Positions 2,525 through 16,002 of a stretch of DNA of 20,431 nucleotides are shown piece after piece (positions within the stretch are counted from its first letter, which is position 1; each line of letters begins with the position of its first letter). A program made the translations under genes and the position numbers. The DNA is from a virus. The notes under the pieces are model-generated. The model saw only the letters and a program-made list of their open reading frames with translations. It was not told where the DNA came from and made no database searches. Location of the stretch: the IMG/VR virus record IMGVR_UViG_3300017742_002121, positions 1 to 20,431 of that record; one strand, 5' to 3'.

Positions 2525-3988
2525 TTAGTTCCAATCTACTTTTTCTATAGTGAAAGGATATTGTGCTTCTTTATAGAATTTTTTTCGTTGTGTTAAATGT
2601 CTCTTTGCAAATTTGCACGTTGAAGTGATATCCCAAATTTGAACAAAGTCTTTGTCTTTTGCTATTCGAACTCCTCTACCGATACTCTGTATTACTCTCA
2701 CAAAGCTCTTTCCAGGCTCCAAAAGAACCAAGTTAAAGATACGAGGAATGTTGAGACCCACAGCGGCCACTCCGTATGTAGCGATAATGACTTCATTAGT
2801 TCCTTCACGTATTGTATCATACGTTTCCTTTCTGTCTTTTACTTTAACTGAACCGCTTACAAAAGTACTATCAGGTATAAGTTCAGCAAGCATTTCACCT
2901 GCTGATATTCTATCTACTAGTATTAGTGTATTGCCGTCCTGTTTAACTGTGTTTAAAAGTTTAGCAATATATTCTATCCTTGATGGATTGCTTACGAGGT
3001 ATTTTAGTTCTTCTTGATAGTTACTGTGTCCTACAGTATCAATCATTTGTACTACATTAACATGGCATTTAGATAAAACACCTTTGTCTTGTAATGACTT
3101 AGCACTAATGCTTCCAATGACTGGACCTAAACTAGCATGTATTGATTCAAATTCAAACTTCTCTTTAGGCACTGTGCCAGTAAGTCCCCAACGAATTGGA
3201 GCATTACGTAAGTTACGTGTAAGTAAATTTTTCAATACTTCTGCTTTTGCTTGATGCACTTCATCAACAATAATAGTGCTTACGCCTTCTAAGAACTCTG
3301 CAAGACTCAACACTGCACTGCCGTCTTTATATTTCTTTTCTAAAATATTTAGACTTTGCCAAGTACAGATTGTGTGAGTCTTGCCTAGTTGTTTTCTATC
3401 ACCAAAGTATACACCTACGTCAAGTCCGCAGTTGATATAATCTTCTTCGGTTTGCTCAACTAGTGATTTGTTAGGCACAATAACCAGGCTACGCCCATAT
3501 GGTTCTGTTATGTGACTAAGCGTTGCTGTAGTAATAGTCTTGCCGGCGCCTGTGGCAATTTGTTGTAAACTCTGCGGATTGTCAAGGAAGTTATTAATAG
3601 CTTCAACTTGATAATCACGTAGAATAATTTCTTCACCTTCTACTGGATGACCTTTAGGCCAGCGTATGCCTTGGTCGGCCCAGTATCGTTCTGTAACAGG
3701 TGTAAATTCTAATTTAATTGGATGACGTCTATCTTCAATGTCTACTATTTGTACATTATTTTTTTGTAGCACTTGACTAACAGTGTCAAGATGATTGACA
3801 TAGCCAGTACCACCAATACCAAAGAAAGCAACCTTTCCATCCCAACGACCAAGTTTATATTGTGGCATATATCTTGCGTAAGGCACTTCAAACTTGAGAG
3901 CATTCGCAAGTTTCCTTCGTACATCAACCTCTAGTCCTTCTAGCTTTATGTTTACTTCATCTTCAATTATTAGTTTACATGATGCCAT
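2525..3988 (-). CDS. uvsW: UvsW-type superfamily 2 helicase
   Basis: A 487-aa SF2 DNA helicase of the UvsW type (T4 UvsW is about 503 aa), which in T4 remodels branched recombination intermediates and stalled forks. The N-terminal ~115 residues match the UvsW accessory domain (RYMPQYKLGRWDGKVAFF). The Q-like motif RDYQ is at 124-127, the P-loop ATGAGKT at 145-151, the DEVH box at 242-245, motif III-like LTGTVP at 269-274 and motif VI QSIGRGVR at 434-441. I chose ATG 3988: the stop of the upstream gene ends 1 bp before it, and the only longer in-frame start is a TTG inside that gene. It is probably coupled to the 419-aa gene. A possible internal sigma70 promoter lies about 200 bp upstream. Confidence 0.95.
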   Translation of the reverse strand: MASCKLIIEDEVNIKLEGLEVDVRRKLANALKFEVPYARYMPQYKLGRWDGKVAFFGIGGTGYVNHLDTVSQVLQKNNVQIVDIEDRRHPIKLEFTPVTERYWADQGIRWPKGHPVEGEEIILRDYQVEAINNFLDNPQSLQQIATGAGKTITTATLSHITEPYGRSLVIVPNKSLVEQTEEDYINCGLDVGVYFGDRKQLGKTHTICTWQSLNILEKKYKDGSAVLSLAEFLEGVSTIIVDEVHQAKAEVLKNLLTRNLRNAPIRWGLTGTVPKEKFEFESIHASLGPVIGSISAKSLQDKGVLSKCHVNVVQMIDTVGHSNYQEELKYLVSNPSRIEYIAKLLNTVKQDGNTLILVDRISAGEMLAELIPDSTFVSGSVKVKDRKETYDTIREGTNEVIIATYGVAAVGLNIPRIFNLVLLEPGKSFVRVIQSIGRGVRIAKDKDFVQIWDITSTCKFAKRHLTQRKKFYKEAQYPFTIEKVDWN

Positions 3989-3989
3989 A

Positions 3990-5249
3990 TTATAGTTCTT
4001 GTATCCCGTTTTTATCAAATCTCATTATCTGAGATGCAGTTTCATCAAAGTGTATTACTAAGTTTGCTTCTTCAATGTATGTTTTTACATTGGTAGACGG
4101 CATCACACTGTCCATCATTAGAACAGTTAATGCCTCCCATTTAACTTTTAGTAACGGCTTTGGTATTTTATTATTATTAATATACACTACTTTTAATGAT
4201 TTGTCAAGTGTTGTATTAATTTTTTCTCTTTTAATATAGTTGTTAAACTCAGGATTAACATGTGAATCTAATCTAAATAACACACTACACTCATGTGGTT
4301 CAATAAATCCTTTTAATGAGTTGTGTACTAATTGTAATGAATCTAATGGATCAAAATTTGTAGGTAGCATTACAAGTAACGGAAATCTATCTAATTCTAA
4401 TAATGATTCAGCAATGTTGTTAAAGTTATATTTTGTTTTATTTACGAAAACATGTGTTGAAGTTCTTCGAACGATACCTTGTGATAAAGTTGAAAGCATA
4501 TTAATACTTTCATCAAGTTTGTTTGGGTCAATGTGTTCTATGCCTAATGAAGAACTGCGATCTTTATATAGTGAAAGATTATCAATACTAGGTTCTCCTA
4601 AACTAGACAGCATAAATTTTACTGCACGATCATTTAAATTTTTTAATTTAAAATTATATATTCCAGGTATATGTTCCTTTTTGTTTTGTTTCATCTCTTG
4701 TAGCTTTCTATTCCATTCAAGCAATTCTTCATCTATTCCAAACTGTTTGTTTTCAAACTGTTCTAGAATCTGTATTGCATTACGTTCAGTTAATAAAAAA
4801 TAATGTTCATGTGAACCTTTCTCATGAATGTATTCGTGTGTCTTATATCTAATCTTATCAAGTGCTACAATAAGTTTTTTAGAAAAAGGAAAACGTATTT
4901 TAATCCAAGGTAACTCCATACCGTGTAAGTCAACTGATTGAAATTTGGTCATTGTCATATTAACAATTTTAATATACTTACTTCTATCAATCTGACGCAA
5001 GGGCATACGTAGGTTATTAATTGCAAAATGAAAATCTATATTATTTTCTATAAATTGATCTTTGTATGTGTTTAATTTCTCTTGAACCACCTCTAGTTGT
5101 CTGTCTGTCAGTGCTACACCTTTAAATACTTGCCTCGCAATACTATACATGATAGTCATGTCGTTGCGCTGTAGTGTCATTTTGTGAGAAGTAGATAGCC
5201 CAGCTATACTTTCGAGGAGGTCTTCAACAGTGTATATTTCATGATCCAT
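3990..5249 (-). CDS. Unknown 419-aa protein upstream of uvsW
   Basis: No recognised domain. It is a 419-aa soluble protein, Leu/Asn/Lys-rich, with a helical N-terminus (VEDLLESIAGL; LTDRQLEVVQEKL), a basic central part and a C-terminal alpha/beta region. The last ~130 residues alternate hydrophobic strands and helices (FPLLVMLPTNFD, VLFRLDSH, LKVVYINNNK, ALTVLMMDSVM). That resembles a RecA/SF2-like fold core, but no P-loop or DExx is visible. It opens the uvsW operon directly behind a consensus sigma70 promoter whose -10 box lies 6 nt before the ATG. There is no Shine-Dalgarno site, so the message may be leaderless. Genetic linkage suggests a partner of UvsW; the function is unknown. Confidence 0.85.
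   Translation of the reverse strand: MDHEIYTVEDLLESIAGLSTSHKMTLQRNDMTIMYSIARQVFKGVALTDRQLEVVQEKLNTYKDQFIENNIDFHFAINNLRMPLRQIDRSKYIKIVNMTMTKFQSVDLHGMELPWIKIRFPFSKKLIVALDKIRYKTHEYIHEKGSHEHYFLLTERNAIQILEQFENKQFGIDEELLEWNRKLQEMKQNKKEHIPGIYNFKLKNLNDRAVKFMLSSLGEPSIDNLSLYKDRSSSLGIEHIDPNKLDESINMLSTLSQGIVRRTSTHVFVNKTKYNFNNIAESLLELDRFPLLVMLPTNFDPLDSLQLVHNSLKGFIEPHECSVLFRLDSHVNPEFNNYIKREKINTTLDKSLKVVYINNNKIPKPLLKVKWEALTVLMMDSVMPSTNVKTYIEEANLVIHFDETASQIMRFDKNGIQEL
4179..4207 (-). promoter_or_regulatory. Possible internal sigma70 promoter for uvsW
   Basis: Read on the minus strand: TTGACA (4207-4202), a 17-bp spacer, then TATATT (4184-4179), one mismatch from consensus. It lies inside the 419-aa gene about 190 bp before the uvsW start and could give uvsW its own early transcript. 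In AT-rich coding DNA a chance match is possible. Confidence 0.4.
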
Positions 5250-5255
5250 ACACGT

Positions 5256-5284
5256 ATTATAACTTATTTTATCTTAGATGTCAA
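5256..5284 (-). promoter_or_regulatory. Consensus sigma70 promoter of the uvsW operon
   Basis: Perfect consensus on the minus strand: TTGACA at 5284-5279, a 17-bp spacer and TATAAT at 5261-5256. It overlaps the last codons of the 5264-6121 gene and ends 6 bp before the ATG at 5249. Transcription would therefore begin at about the A of the ATG. It should let host RNA polymerase express the 419-aa gene, uvsW and probably the genes to the left early in infection, separately from the glycan operon. Confidence 0.85.
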
Positions 5285-6121
5285 GTACTTTAGTGGTATT
5301 CCTTGAGATATTTCTTCAATGGTATGTTCGGTATGTGCGTAATCATTTAGCCATTGTGTTCTATCTGGTGTTAAAGGATTTTCAATATCGTGTAGGAAGT
5401 CTATGTCATTACCAACGTCATACGCAAGCGATAAGGGCCCTACAAACGCTGGAATACCTTTTATGATACTATGTATACCCGGATTGCTAGAATAGCTTAC
5501 AGTAGCGTATACGTTGTTAAAACCCATATCAAAATCATCATATGTAAATGTTAATTTTATAGGGTCTTGCCTATATACATCTTTGTATCTTTTTTCAATA
5601 CCTTTCCCTGCAGGACATCTTGGGTGTGGCCTAAGTAGTATTGGTCTTTTAGTGTGTTCACGGATAGTTGAAATAGTACGTTCTAGCCATATGTCTAGCG
5701 GAGGCATATCTTGCCATTGTAAACTTTTGTTATGTTGTCCACATACTAAAATATACTCGCCTGTGTTATCCCAAGGCTTTAGTTCAAGTCCAAGTTGTTT
5801 AGCCCTACTGCTATCATTACTGTCATCGCTAAAAAAAGCAGTTCTATTGATTCCATTTAGTCCTACCTTCCATGTTGTTCCACGTTTGATACCGCCAACT
5901 TCTAATACTATTGTTGGTTTTTTGTTTGCTTGATTTCTGTCCCAGATGTTTTTGTTTGAAGCCATTCTACCATGCCAAAGAACACTCCAGATAACATCAA
6001 CATCGCTATTAGGGTTATTCCACACAACATCATGGCCAGCATCCAAAATGCTGTGAGCAAAGGCATCAAAAATCGGTTTACTATTGAGTGCGCCATAATC
6101 AGTCCAAAGGCTAAACTGCAT
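5264..6121 (-). CDS. GT-B-like capsule-type glycosyltransferase (copy A)
   Basis: A 285-aa protein resembling the C-terminal half of capsule/LPS-type GT-B transferases (KpsS/LipB-like). Landmarks are RPILLRPHPR (159-168), SYSSNPGIHSIIKGIPAFVGP (209-229), the nucleotide-sugar side of such folds, and DIENP followed by a D-R-x-x-W motif (245-257). Two neighbours (7819-8730 and 8717-9493) share the same RP/VxR, S-S/A-x-G/E and IENP landmarks, so the three look like diverged paralogues. I chose ATG 6121, which overlaps the upstream stop by 11 bp; an in-frame ATG at 6151 is a longer alternative. It is the last gene of a seven-gene coupled operon. Donor and acceptor unknown. Confidence 0.78.
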   Translation of the reverse strand: MQFSLWTDYGALNSKPIFDAFAHSILDAGHDVVWNNPNSDVDVIWSVLWHGRMASNKNIWDRNQANKKPTIVLEVGGIKRGTTWKVGLNGINRTAFFSDDSNDSSRAKQLGLELKPWDNTGEYILVCGQHNKSLQWQDMPPLDIWLERTISTIREHTKRPILLRPHPRCPAGKGIEKRYKDVYRQDPIKLTFTYDDFDMGFNNVYATVSYSSNPGIHSIIKGIPAFVGPLSLAYDVGNDIDFLHDIENPLTPDRTQWLNDYAHTEHTIEEISQGIPLKYLTSKIK

Positions 6122-7010
6122 CTTCTTCGTCGTAACCTGCTTCAATTCCATCAAAGTTTATTCTTTCTTTTAATCCTGCTTTGAAGTGCTGTATGTAAGG
6201 ACCAATTACACTTCTACTAAACGGTGTCTTGTGTCTGCCTGGATTTAGATTTAGCATCTTATGTCCTTTTGCTTCCATTAGCTCAACAGTCTTACCGTAT
6301 ACTTCACCGTCATAAAATCTTCTAATATCTTCTTTTTCATCGTTAACATAGATGCGTTTGTATGTTTCACAAAAGTCTTTGTAACCAGGATGCTCTTTGT
6401 TTAACACAAAAAATCCTGTTTCACAACTATGATATTCTCTACCATTTGCTTCGTGCCATACTGAGAAGTGTGTACTAAGAACATCTTGTGGAGCAATCAT
6501 ATCAAGTAATTGATCATTAAAGTCTTCTGTAAACAATGTATCAGCATCAAACCATATTAAACGTTTACAATCAAGATTTTCCATTGCATGTATAATACTA
6601 AAACCTTTTTTAGCAAATGTTTTTACTTTATCGTTTTTCCAACGATTTTGAAACTTAATAAATTCAGGACCTAAATCCCAACCCATTTCAACCAAGTTCT
6701 TTGACTTAGGTGTAAATAATCCTTCGTTGTACACATGTATGTCGCAAATAAAACCAAAGTGTTTACTAAAGCTTCTTAGAAATGGCCGTCCTGTTTTGTT
6801 ATAGTATGTATTATTCATACTAGTTATTGCCGCATATTTCTTACTACTCATTTTTGTTTCTCCTGTTGATCGATCAATTTTAATCTTGCTCCATCGTGAT
6901 TTAATAAATTCTTGTCCGCTAATATGCGAAGTTTTTGCTCGCCACACATTGTCGTTGTGCTCTACATGATTACCCATACTATAAGGTGTTAAAGGTTGCC
7001 AGTTTTTCAT
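6111..7010 (-). CDS. GT-A glycosyltransferase with N-terminal carbohydrate-binding-like domain
   Basis: A 299-aa protein in two parts. Residues about 4-46 have a pattern like CBM5/12 or the short repeat of phage tail-fibre proteins: W4, Y10, G13, V16, then VWRAK, TSHISG and W40. The rest is a GT-A-type transferase with a DxD metal-nucleotide motif in RLIWFDADTLF (DAD 155-157) and a later SCETGFFVLN segment typical of these folds. It presumably moves a sugar from a nucleotide-sugar with divalent metal help, while the small domain may hold the glycan or virion substrate. ATG 7010 overlaps the previous stop as ATGA; an in-frame ATG at 7022 is possible. Confidence 0.8.
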   Translation of the reverse strand: MKNWQPLTPYSMGNHVEHNDNVWRAKTSHISGQEFIKSRWSKIKIDRSTGETKMSSKKYAAITSMNNTYYNKTGRPFLRSFSKHFGFICDIHVYNEGLFTPKSKNLVEMGWDLGPEFIKFQNRWKNDKVKTFAKKGFSIIHAMENLDCKRLIWFDADTLFTEDFNDQLLDMIAPQDVLSTHFSVWHEANGREYHSCETGFFVLNKEHPGYKDFCETYKRIYVNDEKEDIRRFYDGEVYGKTVELMEAKGHKMLNLNPGRHKTPFSRSVIGPYIQHFKAGLKERINFDGIEAGYDEEDAV

Positions 7011-7822
7011 ATCGTTTTCCAATATTCTTCAGTGCGTGGTTTTAATAAGTCTGTTCTTTTACTCTTACCGTCATCTTTCCGACCGCCTTTGAGATGATCT
7101 AAGTAACCGCCCCATACACTGTTTATTAAAGGATGACCTTCACCTCTTACAAGTCCGGCTCCCCAGTTATGGTTTTGCAGTTTCATTGGTTTACGTACTA
7201 CTTCAAACACAAAACTATCATGCCATTCGTCCATTTGGAATATACCGTTTTCTGCATCGTTATATACTCGTCTAAATTCTTTGAGGAATCTTTTGCCCAT
7301 TTTTGATGTAAGGTTAGTACTGTATAGTCCGCACTCTGGCCATTTACGTTCCCTACCAACATAGCACAAGTCTGCATTGTCCGGGTGTAATTTTAAAATT
7401 GTTTCTAATGTAATAGGACTGTGACAGAACATATCAGCGTCCATCCACATTAACCAATCTGTATTACAAATTTCTGCACAATGAAAAATGCTATATACCT
7501 TGTGCGAGAATCTTACAGCGTCCCATTTAAATCCTTTACCTGCATCTCTTCTTTTACTACGAATTGGATCTTGTGATACATCGCCGTTTGCTTTTGGAAC
7601 ATTTTTCCATTTTTCTTTAAATGCAACTAACTCCGGTACACTTGAATGTAGATCAAATAATTCGATCCTATCATGGTCCTTAATTTTTGGATTGCAGTCT
7701 TCTGCATACACATATAGTGTTACTTCCTTTGGCCAGTTATCAATAAAACTATCAATCATACGCTGTCCGTATTTCCGCAATCCGTCTGCGTTAAACGTTG
7801 TTACTACACTTAATGTTCTCAT
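7007..7822 (-). CDS. GT-A-fold glycosyltransferase
   Basis: A 271-aa protein. It opens with a Rossmann-like strand (RTLSVVTTFNADG) and has a clear DxD motif in TDWLMWMDADMF (DAD 128-130). A further conserved-looking CGLYSTNLTSK segment and an HDSFVFE / NHNWGAG region follow, where GT-A acceptors and the catalytic base usually lie. The fold predicts a metal-dependent, nucleotide-sugar-using transferase; the sugar is unknown. ATGA overlaps (4 bp) with both the upstream and downstream genes tie it tightly into the operon. It is a different subfamily from the neighbouring GT-A protein, with little visible similarity outside the DxD region. Confidence 0.82.
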   Translation of the reverse strand: MRTLSVVTTFNADGLRKYGQRMIDSFIDNWPKEVTLYVYAEDCNPKIKDHDRIELFDLHSSVPELVAFKEKWKNVPKANGDVSQDPIRSKRRDAGKGFKWDAVRFSHKVYSIFHCAEICNTDWLMWMDADMFCHSPITLETILKLHPDNADLCYVGRERKWPECGLYSTNLTSKMGKRFLKEFRRVYNDAENGIFQMDEWHDSFVFEVVRKPMKLQNHNWGAGLVRGEGHPLINSVWGGYLDHLKGGRKDDGKSKRTDLLKPRTEEYWKTI

Positions 7823-8730
7823 AAGTAGTCCTTTATAATACTCCAGGCTTTACCTGAACGTAAATCACTATAATTAAAATGACACATACAAATTTTTTCT
7901 ATCCATTGCTGTCTGTCAGGCAGTTTAGGGTTTTCAATATCTTTTATATCAAAGTTTGCAATATCGTATGCTTGGCTTGTTTGTGGTACAGGGTCTGTTA
8001 CAAAAACTGGAACGCCTTCAATAGCACTTACTACTCCAGGGCTACTATTAAATGTTATAGTTGCCCAACAGTTAATTAGGTCTGTTACAATACTTTTGTT
8101 TTGACTTACTACTACACCAGGCATAATTTTTTTCATATAATTTAATGCTTGTCTATCCCCAGGATGTGCTCTAACTAATATTGGTCTGTCTGTATACTTG
8201 CGTAATCTTTTAATTGTGTGATTGCACCATTGTACAACATTAGTTTGCCCCATACTCCAGCCACCGTTACGTTGTAAACAAATTAATATATGATTGCCTT
8301 CTGTACGCCAAGGTTGAAGATCCATATCGTAATCTTGTTTTATTTGTTGCCAGCGTTTTGGATCTACATTATCTGTAAAATAATTTCCTGTAGTAGGAAA
8401 CACATCATCTAAACTAAAACGAAAATACTTTAACGGATTATTTGTATCTCTATATAAAAATAAATTACTATCAATAGCAAGTGTGTGTCCTTTGTGTACA
8501 CGCTGTTCGTTAATTATTTTTCTTCTAAACATTAGATGCGGTGTACGTCCACTGTTTTGATGCACCCAACCCTGCATAACAGCAAGGTCAGTTGGTTGAT
8601 AATTCATGCCTTCAACAAGAGTACTTTGATTATCTGGAACACCTTCATGAAAGAATGTTAGCATATCTCTCTTTTCAGGTTTTGTATTTTTTGCAGGAAT
8701 ACCTGCATAGTAGACTCTAACTGACTTCAT
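7819..8730 (-). CDS. GT-B-like glycosyltransferase (copy B)
   Basis: A 303-aa paralogue of the 5264-6121 and 8717-9493 proteins. The shared landmarks are RPILVRAHPG (182-191), FNSSPGVVSAIEGVPVFVTDP (227-247), then DIENP at 264-268 followed by PDRQQW. The N-terminal ~110 residues differ from the sister copies, which may reflect different acceptors. This is the capsule-polysaccharide-type GT-B layout with a conserved His-Pro and Ser-Pro-Gly loop. The start overlaps the preceding gene by 14 bp and the stop overlaps the next ATG by 4 bp. The DNA shows no frameshift. Donor sugar and acceptor cannot be read from the sequence. Confidence 0.78.
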   Translation of the reverse strand: MKSVRVYYAGIPAKNTKPEKRDMLTFFHEGVPDNQSTLVEGMNYQPTDLAVMQGWVHQNSGRTPHLMFRRKIINEQRVHKGHTLAIDSNLFLYRDTNNPLKYFRFSLDDVFPTTGNYFTDNVDPKRWQQIKQDYDMDLQPWRTEGNHILICLQRNGGWSMGQTNVVQWCNHTIKRLRKYTDRPILVRAHPGDRQALNYMKKIMPGVVVSQNKSIVTDLINCWATITFNSSPGVVSAIEGVPVFVTDPVPQTSQAYDIANFDIKDIENPKLPDRQQWIEKICMCHFNYSDLRSGKAWSIIKDYL

Positions 8731-9493
8731 TTTTTAACATCCTATAAGCATCACCATTTTTTAATTCGTTAACATGAAATTGTCCGTATGCTAAATGGCA
8801 AGCCCATTTGTATATAGTATCTGTATCACTCCACTGTGGATTTTCTATATTACTAAGATCTTTATTTGCAACAGGATCTGCGGCAGTAGGTGCTAAAGTA
8901 AATGCTGGCACACCATACATTACGCTTTCTACTGCCGCAATGCTTTGATAAGTTACCATTGCATGACAGTCGTCAAGATCATGAAAGATTGTGTTATTAA
9001 TTCTTGTTGGTCTAGATTGTTTATCTCTTACAATAACTGTGCGATCAGTATGCTTGCCAATCTCGTCTACAGTTTCTTTAATCCATTGTTCTCTATCAAT
9101 ACCGTAAAACTTACATGGCTTCTCACTAGGCGTAACTAACAAAATATGTTTGCCTTGTTTACGTTTATGTAGTATTTGTTGTAATTGTTTCCATCTATCA
9201 TCTGGTCTATCAATAATTTCATTATGCTGTACATCGTCTTTTACAATTCGATGAAATAACTTCCATCCATTTGGATTAATTCGACTTCTGTAATTGCCTA
9301 CATAACCACTGTCCATATAATAAAATTGTTGTTTGTTTTCCCAACATTTATGTATTAACTTACGTTTGCCCATGCTACGTATTAGTATAGGTTCGTTATT
9401 AGGAAAATGATCGTAATTAAAGATAGGTAAGTTTGCACCTTTAGCAAACATGTTAACATATTCGTCAGTAAGATTTTTACTTAAACATATCAT
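8717..9493 (-). CDS. GT-B-like glycosyltransferase (copy C, shortened)
   Basis: A 258-aa member of the same paralogous trio. It keeps the HILLVTPSE strand (116-124), RTVIVRDKQSRP (151-162, where the sister copies have RPHPR or RAHPG), the TYQSIAAVESVMYGVPAFTLAP loop (181-202) and NIENP (215-219). Two landmark residues differ: the His-Pro pair is absent and Ser-Pro-Gly is replaced by Ile-Ala-Ala. Its catalytic activity is therefore less certain than in copies A and B. I chose ATG 9493, which overlaps the upstream stop by 17 bp. A longer reading would start inside the GT8-like gene and adds 21 unconvincing residues. Confidence 0.72.
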   Translation of the reverse strand: MICLSKNLTDEYVNMFAKGANLPIFNYDHFPNNEPILIRSMGKRKLIHKCWENKQQFYYMDSGYVGNYRSRINPNGWKLFHRIVKDDVQHNEIIDRPDDRWKQLQQILHKRKQGKHILLVTPSEKPCKFYGIDREQWIKETVDEIGKHTDRTVIVRDKQSRPTRINNTIFHDLDDCHAMVTYQSIAAVESVMYGVPAFTLAPTAADPVANKDLSNIENPQWSDTDTIYKWACHLAYGQFHVNELKNGDAYRMLKNEVS

Positions 9494-10148
9494 ATAGTTC
9501 TTGTTTCCACAATTCGTTATATTCACAATTACGATAGTTTTCAAACCAAGGACCACCTTCTGTATAGTGTATTAGATTTGGTTTTTCAATATCATCATAC
9601 ACACCTACTAAGTAGTTCCATGTATGATCTAGTTCGCCTACTTCGCTATCATCAAGCCAACTAAAGCGATGTAAGTATGCACCGTTAATTTCTGGTTCAT
9701 TAACTAATTCTTGAGTAAGAGCTTTGTTACTAGGATGTTCGCAATTAAACAACATTACACTTGACCAGTTCTTACGTGGATAGATAGTTTGTTTTTGTCC
9801 GTCCATCTTAAACTGTTCTTTAACTTTATAATCATGTTGTACACACATAACAGCATACTTGTCGTCTGCTTGATCAAACAATTTTTTAATGTCAGTTGTA
9901 AGGATCATATCACAATCCATAAATACTGCCCAACCTTTGAAGTTACATAACTCAGGTATAAGGAAACGTGTAAAAGTAAACTCAGTGCTTGCTAGTTTAT
10001 CTATAGGTCTATTATACCAGCCTGCATCTCTTAATTCTTGTTGTTTTAAAGGGCGCACATCGGCATCAGGTTGTCTAGCTAATATACTATGCTTACAAAC
10101 TTGATAAGCAATGTCCTCTCTAGTGTCATACCCTACAAATACTTTCAT
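9477..10148 (-). CDS. GT8-like (glycogenin/galactosyltransferase-type) glycosyltransferase
   Basis: A 223-aa protein with the compact GT8 layout. The N-terminus MKVFVGYDTREDIAYQVCK is the usual opening strand with the YD-R-E pattern. The segment TEFTFTRFLIPEL (55-67) is followed by AVFMDCDMIL with DxD (DCD 78-80). The C-terminal LIHYTEGGPWFENY has the His and Pro-Trp of the GT8 metal-binding tail. It is predicted to be a retaining, Mn-dependent transferase using a UDP-sugar. It is second in the operon, with an ATGA overlap to the fusion gene upstream. Similar small GT8 proteins are known from marine T4-like phages. The acceptor is unknown. Confidence 0.87.
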   Translation of the reverse strand: MKVFVGYDTREDIAYQVCKHSILARQPDADVRPLKQQELRDAGWYNRPIDKLASTEFTFTRFLIPELCNFKGWAVFMDCDMILTTDIKKLFDQADDKYAVMCVQHDYKVKEQFKMDGQKQTIYPRKNWSSVMLFNCEHPSNKALTQELVNEPEINGAYLHRFSWLDDSEVGELDHTWNYLVGVYDDIEKPNLIHYTEGGPWFENYRNCEYNELWKQELYDMFK

Positions 10149-10921
10149 GTGTCTTTTCTTTCAATGTCTTCTTCAATACAATTTGTTCCGTATTGTATTT
10201 CTACTAATTTTAAATTTGTGTTGTGTTCGTTAGCAAGTTGATGCCAAGTTCCTACAGGTATATGTAACGACTCGTGTTGATTGTATGTACCTAATGTTTC
10301 TACATCAGTACTACGTGTGTTAATAGTATATACTGTTGCTGTTCCTTCTGCAACAAACCAATGTTCTGAACGTTCTTTATGACGTTGCATCGATAGCTTA
10401 CCACCTGGTGGCACTGCTAATTCCTTTACTTTAGTATGTTCATCATATTCGTGTATCACTCTGTAGTACCCCCATGTACGCTCAGTCTTTGGTGCCTTCC
10501 ACTCGTCTAGTATCCAGCTACTTGAATTCTTTTTATCTTCGCCACCTACGCCAAATACAAATTCTACATTAGGCATATCACCATATGTAGCATACTCCGG
10601 TGTTGTTGTGTTAGTTCTATCTCCACCGTTAGCAAAGATTACTTTGATGTCTCCATGTGTACTTAGCGTATGAAAAATTGCATGACAAGCACTATCGTCG
10701 CTGTCGTCAAATCCAATTACTTTATCTACAATTTCCATTTCTTGTATAAGTGCAATACGTTCTGTAAAGGGCATAAAGGGCCTACCTTTTTTACGTGTTA
10801 ACCATTCGTCACTATTCACGCCGACAATAAGTTTGTCGCCGAGCTTCTTTGCTTCTTTGAAATAGGCTAGATGCCCTGAGTGTAGTGGATCAAAGCCACC
10901 TGTTACTAATACAACGTTCAT
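10145..10921 (-). CDS. Cytidylyltransferase-like domain fused to mannose-6-phosphate isomerase-type cupin
   Basis: A 258-aa two-domain protein. Residues 1-~130 are a nucleotidyltransferase of the TagD/HldE-C type: VTGGFDPLHSGH (6-17, HxGH-type motif with HSGH), VGVNSDEWLTRKKG (33-46) and RPFMPFTERIALI. Residues ~147-258 match the C-terminal cupin of type II mannose-6-phosphate isomerase/GDP-mannose pyrophosphorylase: TWGYYRVIHEYDEHTKVKEL, PGGKLSMQRHKERSEHW (172-188), IPVGTWHQL (221-229) and EIQYG. It could prime a sugar phosphate and activate it as NDP-sugar, supplying the transferases that follow. It is the first gene of the operon, with an ATTAAATA octamer 5 nt before the ATG and no clear Shine-Dalgarno. 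Confidence 0.87.
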   Translation of the reverse strand: MNVVLVTGGFDPLHSGHLAYFKEAKKLGDKLIVGVNSDEWLTRKKGRPFMPFTERIALIQEMEIVDKVIGFDDSDDSACHAIFHTLSTHGDIKVIFANGGDRTNTTTPEYATYGDMPNVEFVFGVGGEDKKNSSSWILDEWKAPKTERTWGYYRVIHEYDEHTKVKELAVPPGGKLSMQRHKERSEHWFVAEGTATVYTINTRSTDVETLGTYNQHESLHIPVGTWHQLANEHNTNLKLVEIQYGTNCIEEDIERKDT

Positions 10922-10926
10922 AAGTA

Positions 10927-10940
10927 TATTTAATTAAATA
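10927..10940. promoter_or_regulatory. Palindromic late-promoter-like element between divergent genes
   Basis: A perfect 14-bp palindrome, TATTTAATTAAATA, in a 24-bp divergent gap. Each strand reads ATTAAATA, close to the T4 late consensus TATAAATA, and each copy ends exactly 5 nt before its own ATG (10921 minus, 10946 plus). It could be a symmetric bidirectional promoter. Confidence 0.5.
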
Positions 10941-10945
10941 GCAGT

Positions 10946-11527
10946 ATGGCTATACATATTCCTGAGCATAACTTGACCTTTATTCATATTCCAAAGACAG
11001 GCGGCTCTAGTATACAAGATTGGTTATTAAAAAATAACAAATGCGTATATCCTAAAAAATCAGTACATTGGAACGTTAGTCAGACTAAGGAACACTTTGT
11101 TAATGTTGGCAAAACATTTTGTGTAGTACGCAATCCATATGATTGGATGGTTAGTTGGTTTGAATACGAACGTAAACTTACACCAAGATACATAGCAAAG
11201 TTAGGCAGTATACATAAACTTAATCTTGAGAAAGAGACTCACAACAAAGAACTTCTTATTAAAAAACAGTCTATATTAGATAAAGGATTTAAATGTTATT
11301 TGTTAGAATATGGAATTAACATAACGTCACAATACAGTTGGGCAAATGATGTTGATATTGTATTACGTTTTCACAATTTAAATAATGATTTTAAACAACT
11401 GTTTAAAACTAACACTAACTTGCCTACAGTAAACACTACAGAACGTCAAGCCTGGCCTAGTTATTACGATAAAGAATGTAAACAAATTATGTTAGATTAT
11501 TTTAGTAAAGATTTTACCCTTTTATAA
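10946..11527 (+). CDS. Sulfotransferase (PAPS-dependent, Sulfotransfer_2-like)
   Basis: A 193-aa protein on the plus strand, against its neighbours. The two PAPS-binding motifs are clear: HIPKTGGSSI (14-23, the 5'-phosphosulfate loop) and VVRNPYDWMVS (60-70, the 3'-phosphate motif with Arg and Ser). It is predicted to move sulfate from PAPS onto a hydroxyl or amine, most likely of a glycan given the surrounding genes. It is near the short end for the family but complete at both motifs. There is no Shine-Dalgarno; ATTAAATA lies 5 nt before the ATG. The last 31 bp overlap the end of the convergent pyruvyl transferase gene. The PAPS would have to come from the host. Confidence 0.9.
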   Translation: MAIHIPEHNLTFIHIPKTGGSSIQDWLLKNNKCVYPKKSVHWNVSQTKEHFVNVGKTFCVVRNPYDWMVSWFEYERKLTPRYIAKLGSIHKLNLEKETHNKELLIKKQSILDKGFKCYLLEYGINITSQYSWANDVDIVLRFHNLNNDFKQLFKTNTNLPTVNTTERQAWPSYYDKECKQIMLDYFSKDFTLL

Positions 11528-12267
11528 AACTCTCTATTTAAAGATCTACAATCTTCTAAATATCCACTAACATGCCGATCACCTTTATAATTTTTCCAGT
11601 TATCAACAGAATCAATAATAGTAGGTTTATTTTTAAAGTTTTGAAACTTAGTAGTCCAACTAACTACACGAACGTCTCTGTTTAATAACAATCCCCAATA
11701 AGCGCCATGATAACTGTCTGTTACAATAGTCTTACCAGATCCTAAAAATTCTATAACTTCGTCAAAGTTTGTATTAGTATTATGCATAACAGTATCACTT
11801 TCAGGATAAGTATCAGCCGACCGCGTTCTGTGTAAGAAAAATACAGTGTCTTTAGTTGCCGTATACGTTTTATCAAATGCAGGGTGCATACAACTAACAC
11901 ATGGCAAATATTCAGCTGTCCTATTACTAAAGTAATCTCTAACTCCGTATAGTGTAGATTGCGTTAACCAATCCGGCCACCAAAAGTTTTCTTTAAAACT
12001 AAAGTTATGTCCAATGCCCCAAACTATTAAATTTTTATAATTTTGTTTATCTATGTGTGCTGTGTATTTGTTAAAGTATTTTCTAATAAGTCCGCCACCA
12101 CCTACAATAATAGTTTTATTATTTAGGTCATACTTTGTACATTTAGAAATACAATCACTAGTAACGTTTGCAAAGTTAAAATAACGACTAGGATTACAAT
12201 ACATATCCCCTACATTATTATCGCCTTTTTTATAGTGAAATTCTAAGATCTTCTCTTGTGGAACCAT
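11497..12267 (-). CDS. Polysaccharide pyruvyl transferase family protein
   Basis: A 256-aa protein with the PS_pyruv_trans layout: NNVGDMYCNP near the N-terminus (17-26), IIVGGGGLIRKYF (53-65), IVWGIGHNF (81-89), YGVRDYFSN (107-115) and TDSYHGAYWGLLLNRDVRVV (183-202), which holds the conserved Ser-Tyr-His-Gly. Members add a pyruvate ketal from phosphoenolpyruvate to sugars in capsules, exopolysaccharides and secondary cell-wall polymers, giving a negative charge. The start overlaps the methyltransferase stop by 25 bp. The 3' end overlaps the sulfotransferase tail to tail by 31 bp. Some family members do not transfer pyruvate, so the exact reaction is not certain. Confidence 0.85.
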   Translation of the reverse strand: MVPQEKILEFHYKKGDNNVGDMYCNPSRYFNFANVTSDCISKCTKYDLNNKTIIVGGGGLIRKYFNKYTAHIDKQNYKNLIVWGIGHNFSFKENFWWPDWLTQSTLYGVRDYFSNRTAEYLPCVSCMHPAFDKTYTATKDTVFFLHRTRSADTYPESDTVMHNTNTNFDEVIEFLGSGKTIVTDSYHGAYWGLLLNRDVRVVSWTTKFQNFKNKPTIIDSVDNWKNYKGDRHVSGYLEDCRSLNREFYKRVKSLLK

Positions 12268-12833
12268 GTGTCGTAGTCTACCTCAGCAAAGGGAATGTCT
12301 TCTTTTACAAACCAAGTTTCAAATATTCTAGTTGGCACTTTATGCCATACATCTCTAACAGCTACTTTGTAGCCTAATGGAATCAAGTAATTGCAAGCAA
12401 TAGTATGATAGTCTTCTTCACACTGATATCTATCATGCTCAAATGTAATTACATCAAATGTAATGCCATCACCAATTACTTTTTGTAATGCTTTAAATGT
12501 ATTTTCAGGAGGCTCAATATCTATTGACAAATAATTAATATGTTTAGGCAAATTTAAATCTTCAAGGGCATTTTTGTAATTAAACTTTATAGCATCGCCC
12601 CAGTATATAGGATTTGTTCTTTGTGGACAATTATCCCATTCTGACTTATATTGCATATCAAATTCAATACTAAATCCCTTCCAGTTTTGTAACACTTCTA
12701 AGTTGTATGTGTTACTGCGCTTTCTTGGAAGGTGACCTCCTATTTCAATATAAGTACCGCCCATACCAATGCAATCAGAAGCAAACATATCCTGTCCTGC
12801 TTGACTACATTTTCTCCATTTCTCTCGTTTCAT
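12243..12833 (-). CDS. FkbM-like methyltransferase (SAM-fold protein)
   Basis: A 196-aa protein that looks like a short FkbM-type methyltransferase. It has SQAGQDMFASD (10-20), then TYIEIGGHLPRKRSNTYNLE (27-46) in the SAM-binding motif I position, WKGFSIEFDMQYKSEW (51-66), and YLSIDIEPPE (101-110) followed by FDVITFEHDRYQCE, where FkbM proteins carry the acidic strand. EIGG replaces the more usual DxGxxxG, so SAM binding may be altered. It likely methylates a sugar hydroxyl in the glycan made by the island. AAAGGA lies 7 nt upstream of the ATG, with a CATAAATA box 29 nt upstream. It is coupled to the pyruvyl transferase by overlap. Confidence 0.75.
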   Translation of the reverse strand: MKREKWRKCSQAGQDMFASDCIGMGGTYIEIGGHLPRKRSNTYNLEVLQNWKGFSIEFDMQYKSEWDNCPQRTNPIYWGDAIKFNYKNALEDLNLPKHINYLSIDIEPPENTFKALQKVIGDGITFDVITFEHDRYQCEEDYHTIACNYLIPLGYKVAVRDVWHKVPTRIFETWFVKEDIPFAEVDYDTWFHKRRS

Positions 12834-12854
12834 CGTGATCCTTTAAACTACGTA

Positions 12855-12870
12855 TATAAATATATTTATG
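12855..12870. promoter_or_regulatory. Late promoter TATAAATA within a 14-bp palindrome
   Basis: The plus strand has an exact T4-type late octamer TATAAATA at 12855-12862, 5 nt before the ATG at 12868. It is part of the perfect palindrome ATAAATATATTTAT (12856-12869), so the minus strand reads CATAAATA, 29 nt before the ATG at 12833 and followed by a normal AAAGGA site. This divergent gap is 34 bp. Confidence 0.65.
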
Positions 12871-13551
12871 AGAATACTTTATGCCACCGGCACAAGCAGA
12901 ACCTACTTTTCAACAATAACTGGTTATACACTGCCTTCTTGGAAGTATTTAATCGGAGATAAAATTGTATACCTTGATGAAGATTTTAAAATTCCTTCAT
13001 TTAAAACAAGGTCAATAATGTTTGAAAAATGGAAAAAACCAAGTCTGTTTAGTGCATCAGAAGAAAAGTTTTATAGAAAAAGTAGATGCATTGTACAAGC
13101 ATTAGAAGACGGTTGGAAATACGACTATGTTATCTGGATAGATGGTGATGTTGAAGTTACTAAACAACCTAATTTGTTAGAAATTTTACCAAATAGTAAT
13201 GAGCTAGTAAGTGCAGTACGGAAGCCTGGTAAAGACGGGACAGGACTTGATAGTGGGTTTGTTGCATTCAATATGAAACACAAATCACTTGGTGTATTTT
13301 TATCAGAGTATACATCATTCTGGCTTGACAAAGAACGGCTTAGAGCATTGCCTTACAGATATGATGCACCTGTGTTGGAAGAAATATTAAAAAAGTATAC
13401 TTGGCGTAATTTACTTAATGATGATTATGATGGTGATAATCCGGAAAAGAAACATCATTGTGGGTTTGATGGTAGTGTATTAGAAAAGTATTTTTTACAC
13501 TATTGGGGCAAAAAACTTAAACAACAAAGATTTTCTAACAAGAAAAGATAG
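12868..13551 (+). CDS. GT-A-fold glycosyltransferase on the plus strand
   Basis: A 227-aa protein. It has an opening strand MRILYATGTSRTYF, helix-rich middle, and a DxD motif in YDYVIWIDGDVEVTKQP (DGD 92-94). A GTGLDSGFVAFNMKHKS segment is the DSGF/N pattern that follows the DxD in GT8/GT32-like enzymes. The C-terminal HHCGFDGSV may supply a metal-binding His. It is predicted to transfer a sugar from a nucleotide-sugar; donor and acceptor are unknown. It is a single plus-strand gene with a late octamer 5 nt before the ATG and no Shine-Dalgarno. Its last 17 bp overlap the convergent FkbM gene. A basic tail (KKLKQQRFSNKKR) could be membrane or nucleic-acid associated. Confidence 0.82.
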   Translation: MRILYATGTSRTYFSTITGYTLPSWKYLIGDKIVYLDEDFKIPSFKTRSIMFEKWKKPSLFSASEEKFYRKSRCIVQALEDGWKYDYVIWIDGDVEVTKQPNLLEILPNSNELVSAVRKPGKDGTGLDSGFVAFNMKHKSLGVFLSEYTSFWLDKERLRALPYRYDAPVLEEILKKYTWRNLLNDDYDGDNPEKKHHCGFDGSVLEKYFLHYWGKKLKQQRFSNKKR

Positions 13552-14203
13552 CATCATTGTGTCCTTGCCAAATCATTTTATAACCGTGTGTCTTTAAAAT
13601 TTTATTAGTTCTATCGTGGACACTTTGATCTCCACCTTTGTCAATAGGCATAAACTCAATACATAATAACGGTTTGTATTTTCTAATAGTGTTTCTTGCA
13701 CCTTCTAATACATCTGCTTCATATCCTTCACAGTCTATTTTAATACAAGAAATATTTTTAAATCTAAAATCGTCTAACGGTTTAACTAGTATATTAGTGC
13801 AAATCTCGTTACCTTTTCTTGGTTTAGGTTTGTCTGCAATTTTAAATGTTCCGGTATTGTTCAAACGACCAATCATTTCTACTTCGCCTGACTTGCTACC
13901 TAATGCACAGTCATACAGCTCTATATTATCGTAACCGTGAACATTACGTACTAAGCATTCATTGTTTAATGGAACAGGCTCAAATGCAAAAACTTTATTA
14001 AAGTTCTTGGCAAACGCTACAGCAAATAATCCTACATTAGCACCAGCATCAATTACATTGCCTGTAGTGTTAGATAGTTTAACAATTTTAGCTATGTACT
14101 TTGTTTGAAAATTATGACCGTATGGTGTGTGTTCTTTATTAATACAATGTTTTGTAAAAAGTATATCGCTGGTTGGTAAATGAAATCTGCCAATTCTTTT
14201 CAT
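13535..14203 (-). CDS. FkbM family methyltransferase
   Basis: A 222-aa full-length FkbM-type SAM methyltransferase. Motif I is NVIDAGANVGLFAVAFAK (49-66), the second strand ends in the acidic VFAFEPVPLN (71-80), and the family signature ISCIKIDCEGYEADVLEGA (151-169) is followed by YKPLLCIEFMP (176-186). These enzymes usually O-methylate sugars or other hydroxyls. It is the island gene next to uvsY. A late-promoter octamer TATAAATA lies 16 nt before the ATG, with GGAGA about 7 nt upstream, so this gene has both promoter and ribosome site. It converges on the plus-strand transferase with a 17-bp overlap. Confidence 0.9.
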   Translation of the reverse strand: MKRIGRFHLPTSDILFTKHCINKEHTPYGHNFQTKYIAKIVKLSNTTGNVIDAGANVGLFAVAFAKNFNKVFAFEPVPLNNECLVRNVHGYDNIELYDCALGSKSGEVEMIGRLNNTGTFKIADKPKPRKGNEICTNILVKPLDDFRFKNISCIKIDCEGYEADVLEGARNTIRKYKPLLCIEFMPIDKGGDQSVHDRTNKILKTHGYKMIWQGHNDAIFSC

Positions 14204-14219: not shown

Positions 14220-14227
14220 TATTTATA
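14220..14227 (-). promoter_or_regulatory. T4-type late promoter octamer
   Basis: Exact TATAAATA on the minus strand, overlapping the uvsY stop codon (14223-14225), upstream of the FkbM gene. It marks the boundary between the recombination cluster and the glycan island. A GGAGA ribosome site follows within about 12 nt, so transcription would begin close to it. Confidence 0.7.
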
Positions 14228-14678
14228 GACTAGCATCTTCCATACCTGCAACACGCAATTTAACTACGTTAGTAATTTGCCATTGCTTTTGGTCAAGTGC
14301 TTTGAGAACTCCTAACCATTTGTTACGCATTAGCGCAAACTCATTAATAATCTTTTCGTAGTCAACGACATCTGCCTCGCCGTCGACGTATTTTTCTACA
14401 TCGCGACTAGACAGAGCTCGTTGATAATTTTCAAGATATTTCTTAAAGTATGAACTACGCAACCTGCGTAGCTCAATATTTAGATAGTGTAATATTGCTT
14501 CAATTTCTTGAAGTTGATTAAATCGGTGTTCAACAATGCCTGGCATACTAGCGGCCGCTCTTTCAACGTTACCTACCAATTTACATTCTGCACGAGCATC
14601 AGTTAATTCATGCTCATAGTGTGCAACTGCATCTGGTATTTTACTTACGTCTCTTGATACTTCGCTATACCAACCCAT
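14223..14678 (-). CDS. uvsY: UvsY recombination mediator
   Basis: A 151-aa mostly helical protein, close in size to T4 UvsY (137 aa). UvsY helps UvsX displace gp32 and load on single-stranded DNA. The recognisable region is the C-terminal half: a basic helix (LRRLRSSYFKKYLENYQRALSSRDVEKY) then DYEKIINEFALMRNKWLGVLKALDQKQWQITNVVKLR. The assignment rests on that pattern and on position just after uvsX, as T4-like phages require the trio gp32-uvsX-uvsY. The ATG at 14678 is 3 bp after the stop of the small acidic gene. In T4, uvsY lies next to uvsW; here the glycan island intervenes. Confidence 0.88.
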   Translation of the reverse strand: MGWYSEVSRDVSKIPDAVAHYEHELTDARAECKLVGNVERAAASMPGIVEHRFNQLQEIEAILHYLNIELRRLRSSYFKKYLENYQRALSSRDVEKYVDGEADVVDYEKIINEFALMRNKWLGVLKALDQKQWQITNVVKLRVAGMEDASL

Positions 14679-14681
14679 TAT

Positions 14682-14909
14682 TTAATCCCAATCATCATCT
14701 TGTTCACTATCTGTTTCGTCTATTTCTAGATAATACCGGATGGCATCATCTAATTTATTGTCTACCCCAAAGGTGCTTTGGAATACGTGATCTGATACTC
14801 CGTAATCTGCAAGTAAGTCAACATAACGTTCCGCGGCCATCTCAACATGCTTCTTGTCAAGATATTCCTTAAAAAGTGTCCATATATCAGCAATCTGTTC
14901 TTCAGTCAT
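14682..14909 (-). CDS. Small acidic hypothetical protein between uvsX and uvsY
   Basis: A 75-aa acidic protein with no recognised domain. Predicted helices dominate (EEQIADIWTLFKEYLDKKHVEMAAERYVDLL), and the tail is strongly acidic (EIDETDSEQDDDWD). The ATG at 14909 overlaps the end of uvsX by 8 bp, and uvsY follows after 3 bp, so all three should be made from one message. The acidic tail resembles the C-terminal tails by which T4 gp32 contacts partners, so this could be a recombination-complex accessory. That is inference. The tight overlap and codon-like composition support it as a gene. Confidence 0.78.
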   Translation of the reverse strand: MTEEQIADIWTLFKEYLDKKHVEMAAERYVDLLADYGVSDHVFQSTFGVDNKLDDAIRYYLEIDETDSEQDDDWD

Positions 14910-16002
14910 TAGTAGCTAGTTCCTCGATAGGTTGTATTTCGTCTTCGCTGTCTGCGTCGAGTGTTTCAGAGGTATTTACCATAGTTGTTTCTTTTACTAG
15001 GTAATCTGACATAACCTTATCGAGATTTTCGCCAATCCACTTTTTACGATAGTCAAGAATTTCTTCACCATCTAGTGTAGTGTATGCAAGTCTATTGCCT
15101 TGCTTTTTAATAATGCCTTTTGCTTCAAACAATTCAAGCAAACCACTATAAGGGTTCATGCCTGTTTCATAAGGAATCTTCACTTGCACACCTTCAAAAG
15201 GTTTTGCATAACGAGTCTTCATTACTTTACAACCTGCTCTAATACCCATTACTTGACTGATTTTATTGCCGTCTTCGTCTTCTTTTAGTTTCAACTTCTT
15301 CATTGCAACAACAATACTTGATGCATAGATAAAGCCTTGACCGCCACTAATCTTATCATCTGGATCAAACATATCCTGTGATGCATAAGTGTGGTTAGTA
15401 CATACTAAGCCTACATTGTGTGAGCCAATCATGTTAACAGTATTACGGACTAATGAAGTTAGTGCTTTAGGCTTACGACCCATATCACCTTTCATATCAC
15501 CTTTGTTAAATTGATCAACGTCTGTAGGTGTTAGTAACATACCTAAACTATCAATAACAAACAACACCTTAGGACGTTCTTCTTCGTCCATTGCTTTGTA
15601 GTCAATCATAAACGTACTAATAGTTTTAGCAACGTCATCAATCATACTCATGTTTAGTTTTAATAGTTTTTCTTCTGAGGTATCAACATCAAGAGCATGT
15701 AACCAGCTTTCGTCAAGTGCGTTCTCTGAGTCAATTAGTACTACAAAGATGCCTTGATCTTGTGCCGCTTTTACAATGTTACCTGCACAGATATATGATT
15801 TACCTGCACCAGACTCTCCTGCAAAAACTGTAACCTTACCCATTGGAACACCTCTATGGAAGTCACCGCTGATAAGATAGTTGAGTGCAAAGTTGCCTGT
15901 ACTAATCCAGTCAGTAGGATCATTAAAACCACTACTCATACCTGAAATAGATTTTGTTAGACTGTTCCGAAACTTACTCGGATCAAACGATTTATTAGCC
16001 AT
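14902..16002 (-). CDS. uvsX: UvsX RecA-like recombinase
   Basis: A 366-aa strand-exchange protein (T4 UvsX is about 390 aa). The Walker A loop GESGAGKS is at 62-69, preceded by the typical NYLISGDFHRGVPMGKVTVFAG. Walker B is in VLFVIDSLGMLLTPTD around 145-160. The L2-region SGGQGFIYASSIVV and a Met/Arg-rich strand follow. It forms filaments on gp32-coated DNA and drives the recombination-dependent replication of T4-like phages. The ribosome site AGGAG is 8 nt upstream. A long inverted repeat lies between gp32 and this gene. The C-terminal ~30 residues are acidic (ETLDADSEDEIQPIEELATND). Confidence 0.96.
   Translation of the reverse strand: MANKSFDPSKFRNSLTKSISGMSSGFNDPTDWISTGNFALNYLISGDFHRGVPMGKVTVFAGESGAGKSYICAGNIVKAAQDQGIFVVLIDSENALDESWLHALDVDTSEEKLLKLNMSMIDDVAKTISTFMIDYKAMDEEERPKVLFVIDSLGMLLTPTDVDQFNKGDMKGDMGRKPKALTSLVRNTVNMIGSHNVGLVCTNHTYASQDMFDPDDKISGGQGFIYASSIVVAMKKLKLKEDEDGNKISQVMGIRAGCKVMKTRYAKPFEGVQVKIPYETGMNPYSGLLELFEAKGIIKKQGNRLAYTTLDGEEILDYRKKWIGENLDKVMSDYLVKETTMVNTSETLDADSEDEIQPIEELATND

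Follow-up and report, generated by a model that had tools for sequence, protein, structure and literature searches.

A phage glycan locus with a fixed core and an exchangeable arm between uvsY and uvsW

Why would a phage keep a long run of glycan genes inside its recombination neighbourhood, and to what would it attach their product? The locus that raises this question lies on a 20,431-base viral fragment (IMG/VR record IMGVR_UViG_3300017742_002121, positions 1 to 20,431; hereafter the window), whose minus strand reads terL, a virion structural protein gene, ssb, uvsX, a small gene, uvsY, the glycan island, a gene at 3990–5249, uvsW and onward. The island itself (5264–14203), bordered by uvsY (14223–14678, minus strand, phrog_231) on one side and the neighbourhood of the uvsW helicase gene (2525–4018, minus strand) on the other, consists of twelve consecutive glycan open reading frames (ORFs) lettered A to L by increasing coordinate, with H and K on the plus strand. 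The answer favoured here, tentatively and with slightly less than even confidence, is a two-part phage glycan pathway that joins a core based on cytidine monophosphate (CMP)-activated Kdo (3-deoxy-D-manno-octulosonic acid) or a similar sugar to an exchangeable arm, with virion proteins as the most likely acceptor.

The twelve genes comprise seven glycosyltransferases (A–F and K), a nucleotidyltransferase–cupin fusion (G), a sulfotransferase (H), a pyruvyl transferase (I), an FkbM methyltransferase (L) and a doubtful methyltransferase (J). Curated Pfam cut-offs are exceeded by F (GT8), G (CTP_transf_like and the MannoseP_isomer cupin), H (Sulfotransfer_2), I (PS_pyruv_trans) and L (FkbM). An earlier note on this DNA had listed twelve glycan genes between uvsY and uvsW, among them a sugar activator, six or seven transferases, a sulfotransferase and a pyruvyl transferase, with no other gene type. 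All of the ORFs are indeed in place, the activator, sulfotransferase and pyruvyl transferase are borne out by G, H and I, the count of transferases agrees, and the absence of other gene types holds within 5264–14203, as the gene at 3990–5249 lies outside, between A and uvsW. Its two FkbM-like methyltransferases fared unequally: L is secure (PF05050, 66.2 bits), whereas J is a weak candidate (hhalign E 0.002, probability 15%; no Pfam or PHROG hit). For B, C and K, zero Pfam families passed the cut-off; the three align as a single family with two invariant aspartates forming a DxD motif, and look like glycosyltransferases of the GT-A fold. Pfam offers no good match for A, D or E, and a search of PHROGs returned no family for A–E, I, J or K.

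Whether these genes form one unit can be judged from the relatives, marine phages like the source, which were fetched twice, once by G and once by uvsX (14902–16002, minus strand), a bait free of island bias. The 42 complete loci, defined as spanning uvsY to uvsW, include many near-duplicates, so the independent cases are fewer. F, E, D, C and A have a match in all 42, G in 41 and gene 3990–5249 in 38, as against three loci each for B, I and J, two for H and one for K. The order is constant (uvsY, arm, G, F, E, D, C, A, gene 3990–5249, uvsW), with extra genes in places. Of the loci fetched by uvsX, 32 extend at least 6.5 kb past uvsY; F and C were found in 26 of them and D and A in 25. Several of the remaining loci contain long arms or stop short of where the core would be visible, so that absence of the core cannot be claimed for them. 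All seven uvsX-selected loci that reach uvsW carry F, E, D, C and A. Two loci (L035 and L041) showed no island match within 9.2 kb past uvsY, which is compatible with either a long arm or loss of the core. The earlier note had taken the island as cargo, as opposed to genes fixed in all relatives. Across the uvsY–uvsW loci this description suits B and the arm genes H–L, which vary, but not F, E, D, C, A and G, which recur as a fixed core.

The core occupies 5264–10921 on the minus strand, with B as an extra gene within it. G (10145–10921) fuses an HxGH nucleotidyltransferase to a mannose-6-phosphate-isomerase-type cupin, and F (9477–10148) is a GT8 transferase (PF01501, 33.4 bits, over the cut-off) with an invariant DxD; the active-site residues of both are invariant. 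C (7007–7822), a GT-A-like transferase with a DxD motif and a sub-threshold GT2 match, is inverted in many relatives. Gene A (5264–6154, likely ATG start at 6151) keeps 61–70% identity across the phage group. The accessory B (6111–7022, likely ATG start at 7010), also GT-A-like with a DxD, contains a sub-threshold CBM_5_12 stretch. Of the 112 F ORFs, 43 also encode the neighbouring E as a fusion (for example in L096, L106 and L138).

The second part of the locus, an exchangeable arm between G and uvsY (10946–14203, genes on both strands), behaves differently from the core. In the window it holds H (10946–11527, plus strand), with the conserved sulfotransferase motifs PKTGGSS and VRNP; I (11497–12267, minus strand; PF04230, 28.8 bits, over the cut-off); J (12243–12833, minus strand); K (12868–13551, plus strand), a GT-A-like transferase with a DxD that is nearly unique to the source phage and its closest relatives; and L (13535–14203, minus strand). 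Across 110 loci the arm ranges from 34 to 8,269 bp and from 0 to 12 genes, counting ORFs of at least 100 amino acids, and the 381 arm ORFs sort into 126 clusters when grouped at 50% identity. A Pfam census, in which a single sequence stood for each cluster, recovered FkbM and other methyltransferases, pyruvyl transferases, sulfotransferases, GT29, GT25 and sugar epimerases, and nearly all recognisable clusters are glycan-related. When the flanking proteins UvsY and G are 95–100% identical, the same arm set is present in 90% of pairs; at 90–95% identity, 54% of pairs are without any common arm family. Arm content turns over faster than its borders. The arm of the window, seen also in L082, is common to L083 and L086 and has nothing in common with those of L084, L085 (91.8% flank identity) or L087 (90.7%). 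These observations are consistent with the exchange of entire arms through recombination within the conserved flanks. The methylated, sulfated and pyruvylated glycan proposed in the earlier note describes the arm of the source phage only; other phages of the group bear other decorations.

Such turnover could also be expected of filler, that is, of passing genes without any consistent function, and 'stuffer DNA' was considered for the cyanophage lipopolysaccharide (LPS) clusters (PMC3037559). This explanation is hardly credible for the present locus, given that the order of the core is kept in every complete locus, that the active-site residues of F and G do not vary and that related modules occur in several unrelated phage lineages.

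What kind of sugar the core would use is suggested by the genes next door. A contig that is 100% identical to the window at the protein level (L178) extends it leftward; there, kdsA begins about 90 bases past the window edge and is followed by a HemE-like gene and then by a KdsB-like gene. KdsA exceeds two NCBIfam equivalog cut-offs (330 bits against 242, and 318.5 against 314). The 335-kb contig PBPT01000016.1 (L349–L365) has kdsA and kdsB at the matching place, with 70% and 60% identity, a sister phage (L219) has a kdsB homologue inside the cluster, and CTP_transf_3 was found in 8 of 16 relatives. The two other activities, KdsD and KdsC, could come from the host. Taken together, these genes make Kdo, an acidic sugar, the probable building block of the chain, a link that the earlier note missed together with the Kdo-transferase-like folds described below. 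The HemE-like gene between kdsB and kdsA (L178:5567–6547, minus strand) encodes a uroporphyrinogen decarboxylase (PF01208, 208 bits); the other relatives inspected lack it there. Further along the same contig, a small P-loop kinase with weak similarity to adenosine 5'-phosphosulfate (APS) kinase adjoins a second HxGH-type nucleotidyltransferase (L178:3349–3774 and L178:2946–3356). An APS kinase near kdsB, as a supplier of 3'-phosphoadenosine 5'-phosphosulfate for H, was considered and dropped, the match being too weak (32.7 bits in Pfam, and only 23.6 against a cut-off of 138.7 for NCBIfam apsK).

The transferases A, D and E, which are paralogues, point to the same sugar. Profiles of A, of D and of all three jointly gave no meaningful hit against the PDB, so that a fold search was needed. 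For the AlphaFold2 model of D (7819–8730, minus strand; predicted local distance difference test, pLDDT, 91.7), the best 28 Foldseek matches in the PDB were all retaining beta-Kdo transferases (KpsC, WbbB and KrkA; E-value 1.8e-7), and for the model of E (8717–9556, minus strand, likely true start at 9493; pLDDT 89.2) the five best matches were KpsC. As modelled, D and E match the Kdo transferases distantly in a KpsC/WbbB-type GT-B fold. Against viral models, that of D also matched several proteins of Tetraselmis virus 1, a giant virus that infects green algae, at a TM-score of about 0.75; these carry the name capsule polysaccharide biosynthesis protein.

The known retaining beta-Kdo transferases carry a QXXXD motif, whose aspartate is the covalent nucleophile, and mostly a (K/R)XHP motif that binds CMP (PMC12887879, PMC9587256). 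Among 273 aligned sequences, QXXXG and RXHP are found in all 76 of core D, and QXXXS and RXHP in all 64 of core A; neither motif is kept in core E, where the glutamine is absent as well. Other phages have paralogues resembling D in their arms, L120:5528–6508 among them; 56 of 59 such sequences contain QXXXD and RXHP, and one paralogue gave a sub-threshold Capsule_synth hit (PF05159). Arm paralogues of this type are present in 19 of the 42 complete loci, the window being without one. With RXHP kept and the aspartate absent, A and D look able, as far as motifs can tell, to bind a CMP-sugar and unable to use the known mechanism. They may employ another mechanism or another CMP-sugar, or serve as non-catalytic partners. 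For want of the QXXXD nucleophile, A, D and E were not assigned to GT99, GT107 or GT140.

Phages outside the group offer a comparison for the site. The order terL–ssb–uvsX–uvsY–uvsW is the same in Pectobacterium phage CBB, Vibrio phage 2.275.O and Sinorhizobium phage Phosso, and the UvsX of the window is about 65% identical to that of such jumbo phages. Their uvsY–uvsW interval holds one gene in CBB and 2.275.O and three hypothetical genes in Phosso. No island genes were detected in the 2.275.O and Phosso loci by tblastn of the window proteins, and, judged from annotation, the CBB interval contains no recognised glycan genes. The notion of a glycan-building and decorating locus set into a conserved recombination neighbourhood is thereby supported. 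The 335-kb contig, which holds the whole locus at 95% coding density and with fairly even GC content, suggests that the group consists of jumbo phages. It is deposited as part of a Neomarinimicrobiota metagenome-assembled genome (MAG), a second contig of which has a near-identical locus. MAG contigs assigned to Neomarinimicrobiota, Euryarchaeota and Rickettsiales were rejected as evidence of the host; they carry the phage locus and are read as mis-binned phage.

The most probable acceptor is suggested by where related modules are found elsewhere. In Caulobacter phages of Bertelyvirus and Colossusvirus, D-, E- and F-like genes and a methyltransferase lie between the tail genes and the endolysin gene; in a podovirus group, an F homologue belongs to a block of major capsid protein, tetratricopeptide repeat (TPR), FkbM and F genes, near the capsid gene; and in pelagimyophages, C, F, D and E follow nrdA–nrdB–RuvC. 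Two of these three settings are structural, namely those in Caulobacter phages and podoviruses. Further, glycoproteins were detected by proteomics in the jumbo phage XacN1 (PMC5852040). These settings and the XacN1 glycoproteins favour the virion moderately. Phage S-SCSM2R was examined as a further D/E case and set aside: its F homologue is near KdsB and KdsA, but genes 262 and 263 do not match D or E. On two marine alphaproteobacterial chromosomes (L191 and L198), F–E, a TPR protein and then C and D homologues follow one another, an arrangement that may be the cellular equivalent of the phage core.

A second possibility, somewhat doubtful although far from remote, is that the locus remodels the host surface by altering LPS or capsule on infected cells, for instance to block later phages, with the arm varying according to competitors and hosts. 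Kdo, the HldE-like nucleotidyltransferase and GT8 all belong to LPS or capsule chemistry, F homologues are common in marine Alphaproteobacteria, and the same reading has been published for the cyanophage and pelagimyophage clusters (PMC7824862, PMC7029224). The flippase and polymerase/ligase families (Wzx, PF01943; Wzy/WaaL, PF04932) are absent from 16 contigs, which speaks against it; these contigs are partial, making this weak evidence, and modification of the LPS core in the cytoplasm would need no phage flippase. The position of the related modules within structural-gene blocks of other phages also counts against it.

DNA had also been listed among the possible targets, and hypermodification, in which the transferases would glycosylate modified phage bases and the arm would diversify the glycan against nucleases, draws on the fact that the neighbouring genes act on DNA and on phage glycosyltransferases described as putting diverse glycans on DNA (Pyle et al. 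2024, as cited in PMC12619734). This now appears very improbable, as the thymidylate synthase/deoxycytidylate hydroxymethylase family PF00303 was found in none of the 16 contigs and not on the 335-kb contig, and no tRNA-guanine transglycosylase (TGT) family was found in the 16 relatives. Neither sulfation nor pyruvylation nor Kdo is known to occur on DNA. On balance, the glycan would more likely be placed on virion proteins than on host LPS, and is unlikely on DNA.

Several observations weigh against a Kdo-based pathway directed at the virion. The best NCBIfam families of the KdsB-like gene are KdsB, all of them below the cut-off (154.9 against 193); PF02348 is over its own. The TM-scores of the D and E models to Kdo transferases are only 0.41–0.55, and the catalytic aspartate is absent from A, D and E, so that any transfer of Kdo by them is putative. 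One further concern is position: in this group the locus adjoins recombination genes, not structural ones, and the pelagimyophage module adjoins nrdAB/RuvC. Finally, Kdo could equally serve host LPS, and the authors of PMC7029224 prefer modification of the host O-chain as the role of the pelagimyophage transferases.

With these reservations, the virion-directed pathway could operate as follows. The core (G, F, E, D, C and A), aided by KdsA and the KdsB-like enzyme, would make a CMP-ulosonic acid, most likely CMP-Kdo, and assemble a short inner oligosaccharide, whose sugars would be added by the GT8 enzyme F, the GT-A-like C and the Kdo-transferase-like proteins D, A and E. The arm would then attach outer sugars and caps, which in the source phage would be O-methyl, pyruvyl and sulfate groups and a further sugar. 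The glycan would most likely be placed on virion proteins while these are in the cytoplasm. Whole arms appear to be swapped between phages while uvsY and G stay conserved, as recombination in these flanks would allow, and each exchange would change the outer surface of the particle, a variation that may be of benefit. The boldest form of this proposal, that virions are coated with a Kdo-type glycan whose outer part is swapped at one locus and that D and A constitute a new class of CMP-ulosonate transferase, related to the retaining Kdo transferases and working without the aspartate nucleophile, must be considered unlikely at present.

Around the island, the conserved gene at 3990–5249 (minus strand), to which no function is assigned, encodes a 419-residue product without a Pfam hit that is conserved yet fast-changing, with 30–50% identity where uvsW keeps 75–92%. 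A YhhQ/QueT-type queuosine-precursor transporter (TIGR00697, over the cut-off) is encoded at 1030–1638, with no TGT-family enzyme among the 16 relatives. The T4-type late promoter TATAAATA gave no signal (2 occurrences against 3.6 expected).

Phage 'LPS' clusters have long been described with no acceptor assigned to them, and the present locus offers a defined core and, in Kdo, a definite precursor to search for. Nature also provides pairs of closely related phages alike in all but the arm, with which acceptor and function can be tested. Should the virion be the target, surface serotypes would be exchangeable among these phages, much as bacteria switch theirs. A and D would be informative as a probable Kdo-transferase fold with the CMP site kept and the nucleophile gone.

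How does the locus compare with known systems? As a kind, glycan clusters of marine phages (PMC3037559, PMC7029224, PMC7824862), their polymorphism, and kdsA and kdsB among marine viral genes (PMC10653327) were already known. A partial literature search returned no report of a fixed core with an exchangeable arm at uvsY–uvsW, or of phage Kdo-transferase-like paralogues without the nucleophile. KpsC (GT107), WbbB (GT99) and KrkA (GT140) have a fold like that predicted for D and E, and their RXHP recurs in D and A, whereas the phage proteins are single-domain and do not have the aspartate nucleophile. Virion glycosylation, as in mycobacteriophages (cited in PMC12619734) and XacN1 (PMC5852040), likewise involves phage glycosyltransferases possibly acting on structural proteins, but the pathways are far smaller than the present one, which is known from its genes alone. 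Bacterial group 2 capsule and O-antigen loci similarly combine conserved genes with a serotype-variable segment and Kdo chemistry, and differ from the phage locus, where no flippase, polymerase or export genes were found. Pelagimyophages (PMC7029224; Mosig EXVC030M) have C-, F- and D/E-like genes together with FkbM and sulfotransferase genes, GT8 being prominent; they differ in genomic site, which for the module was observed at nrdAB–RuvC and in PMC7029224 is a host recognition cluster (HRC) with tail fibres besides scattered LPS genes, and in sequence, with about 25–45% identity to this locus. The cyanophage LPS clusters of T4-like and jumbo phages (P-SSM2, S-SSM7; PMC3037559, PMC7824862) likewise contain many glycosyltransferases, an HxGH nucleotidyltransferase and methyltransferases, and are polymorphic between relatives. 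They are located near hli03 or phoH, whereas the locus described here, in another jumbo lineage, unites a core and a replaceable arm at uvsY–uvsW with Kdo-type enzymes.

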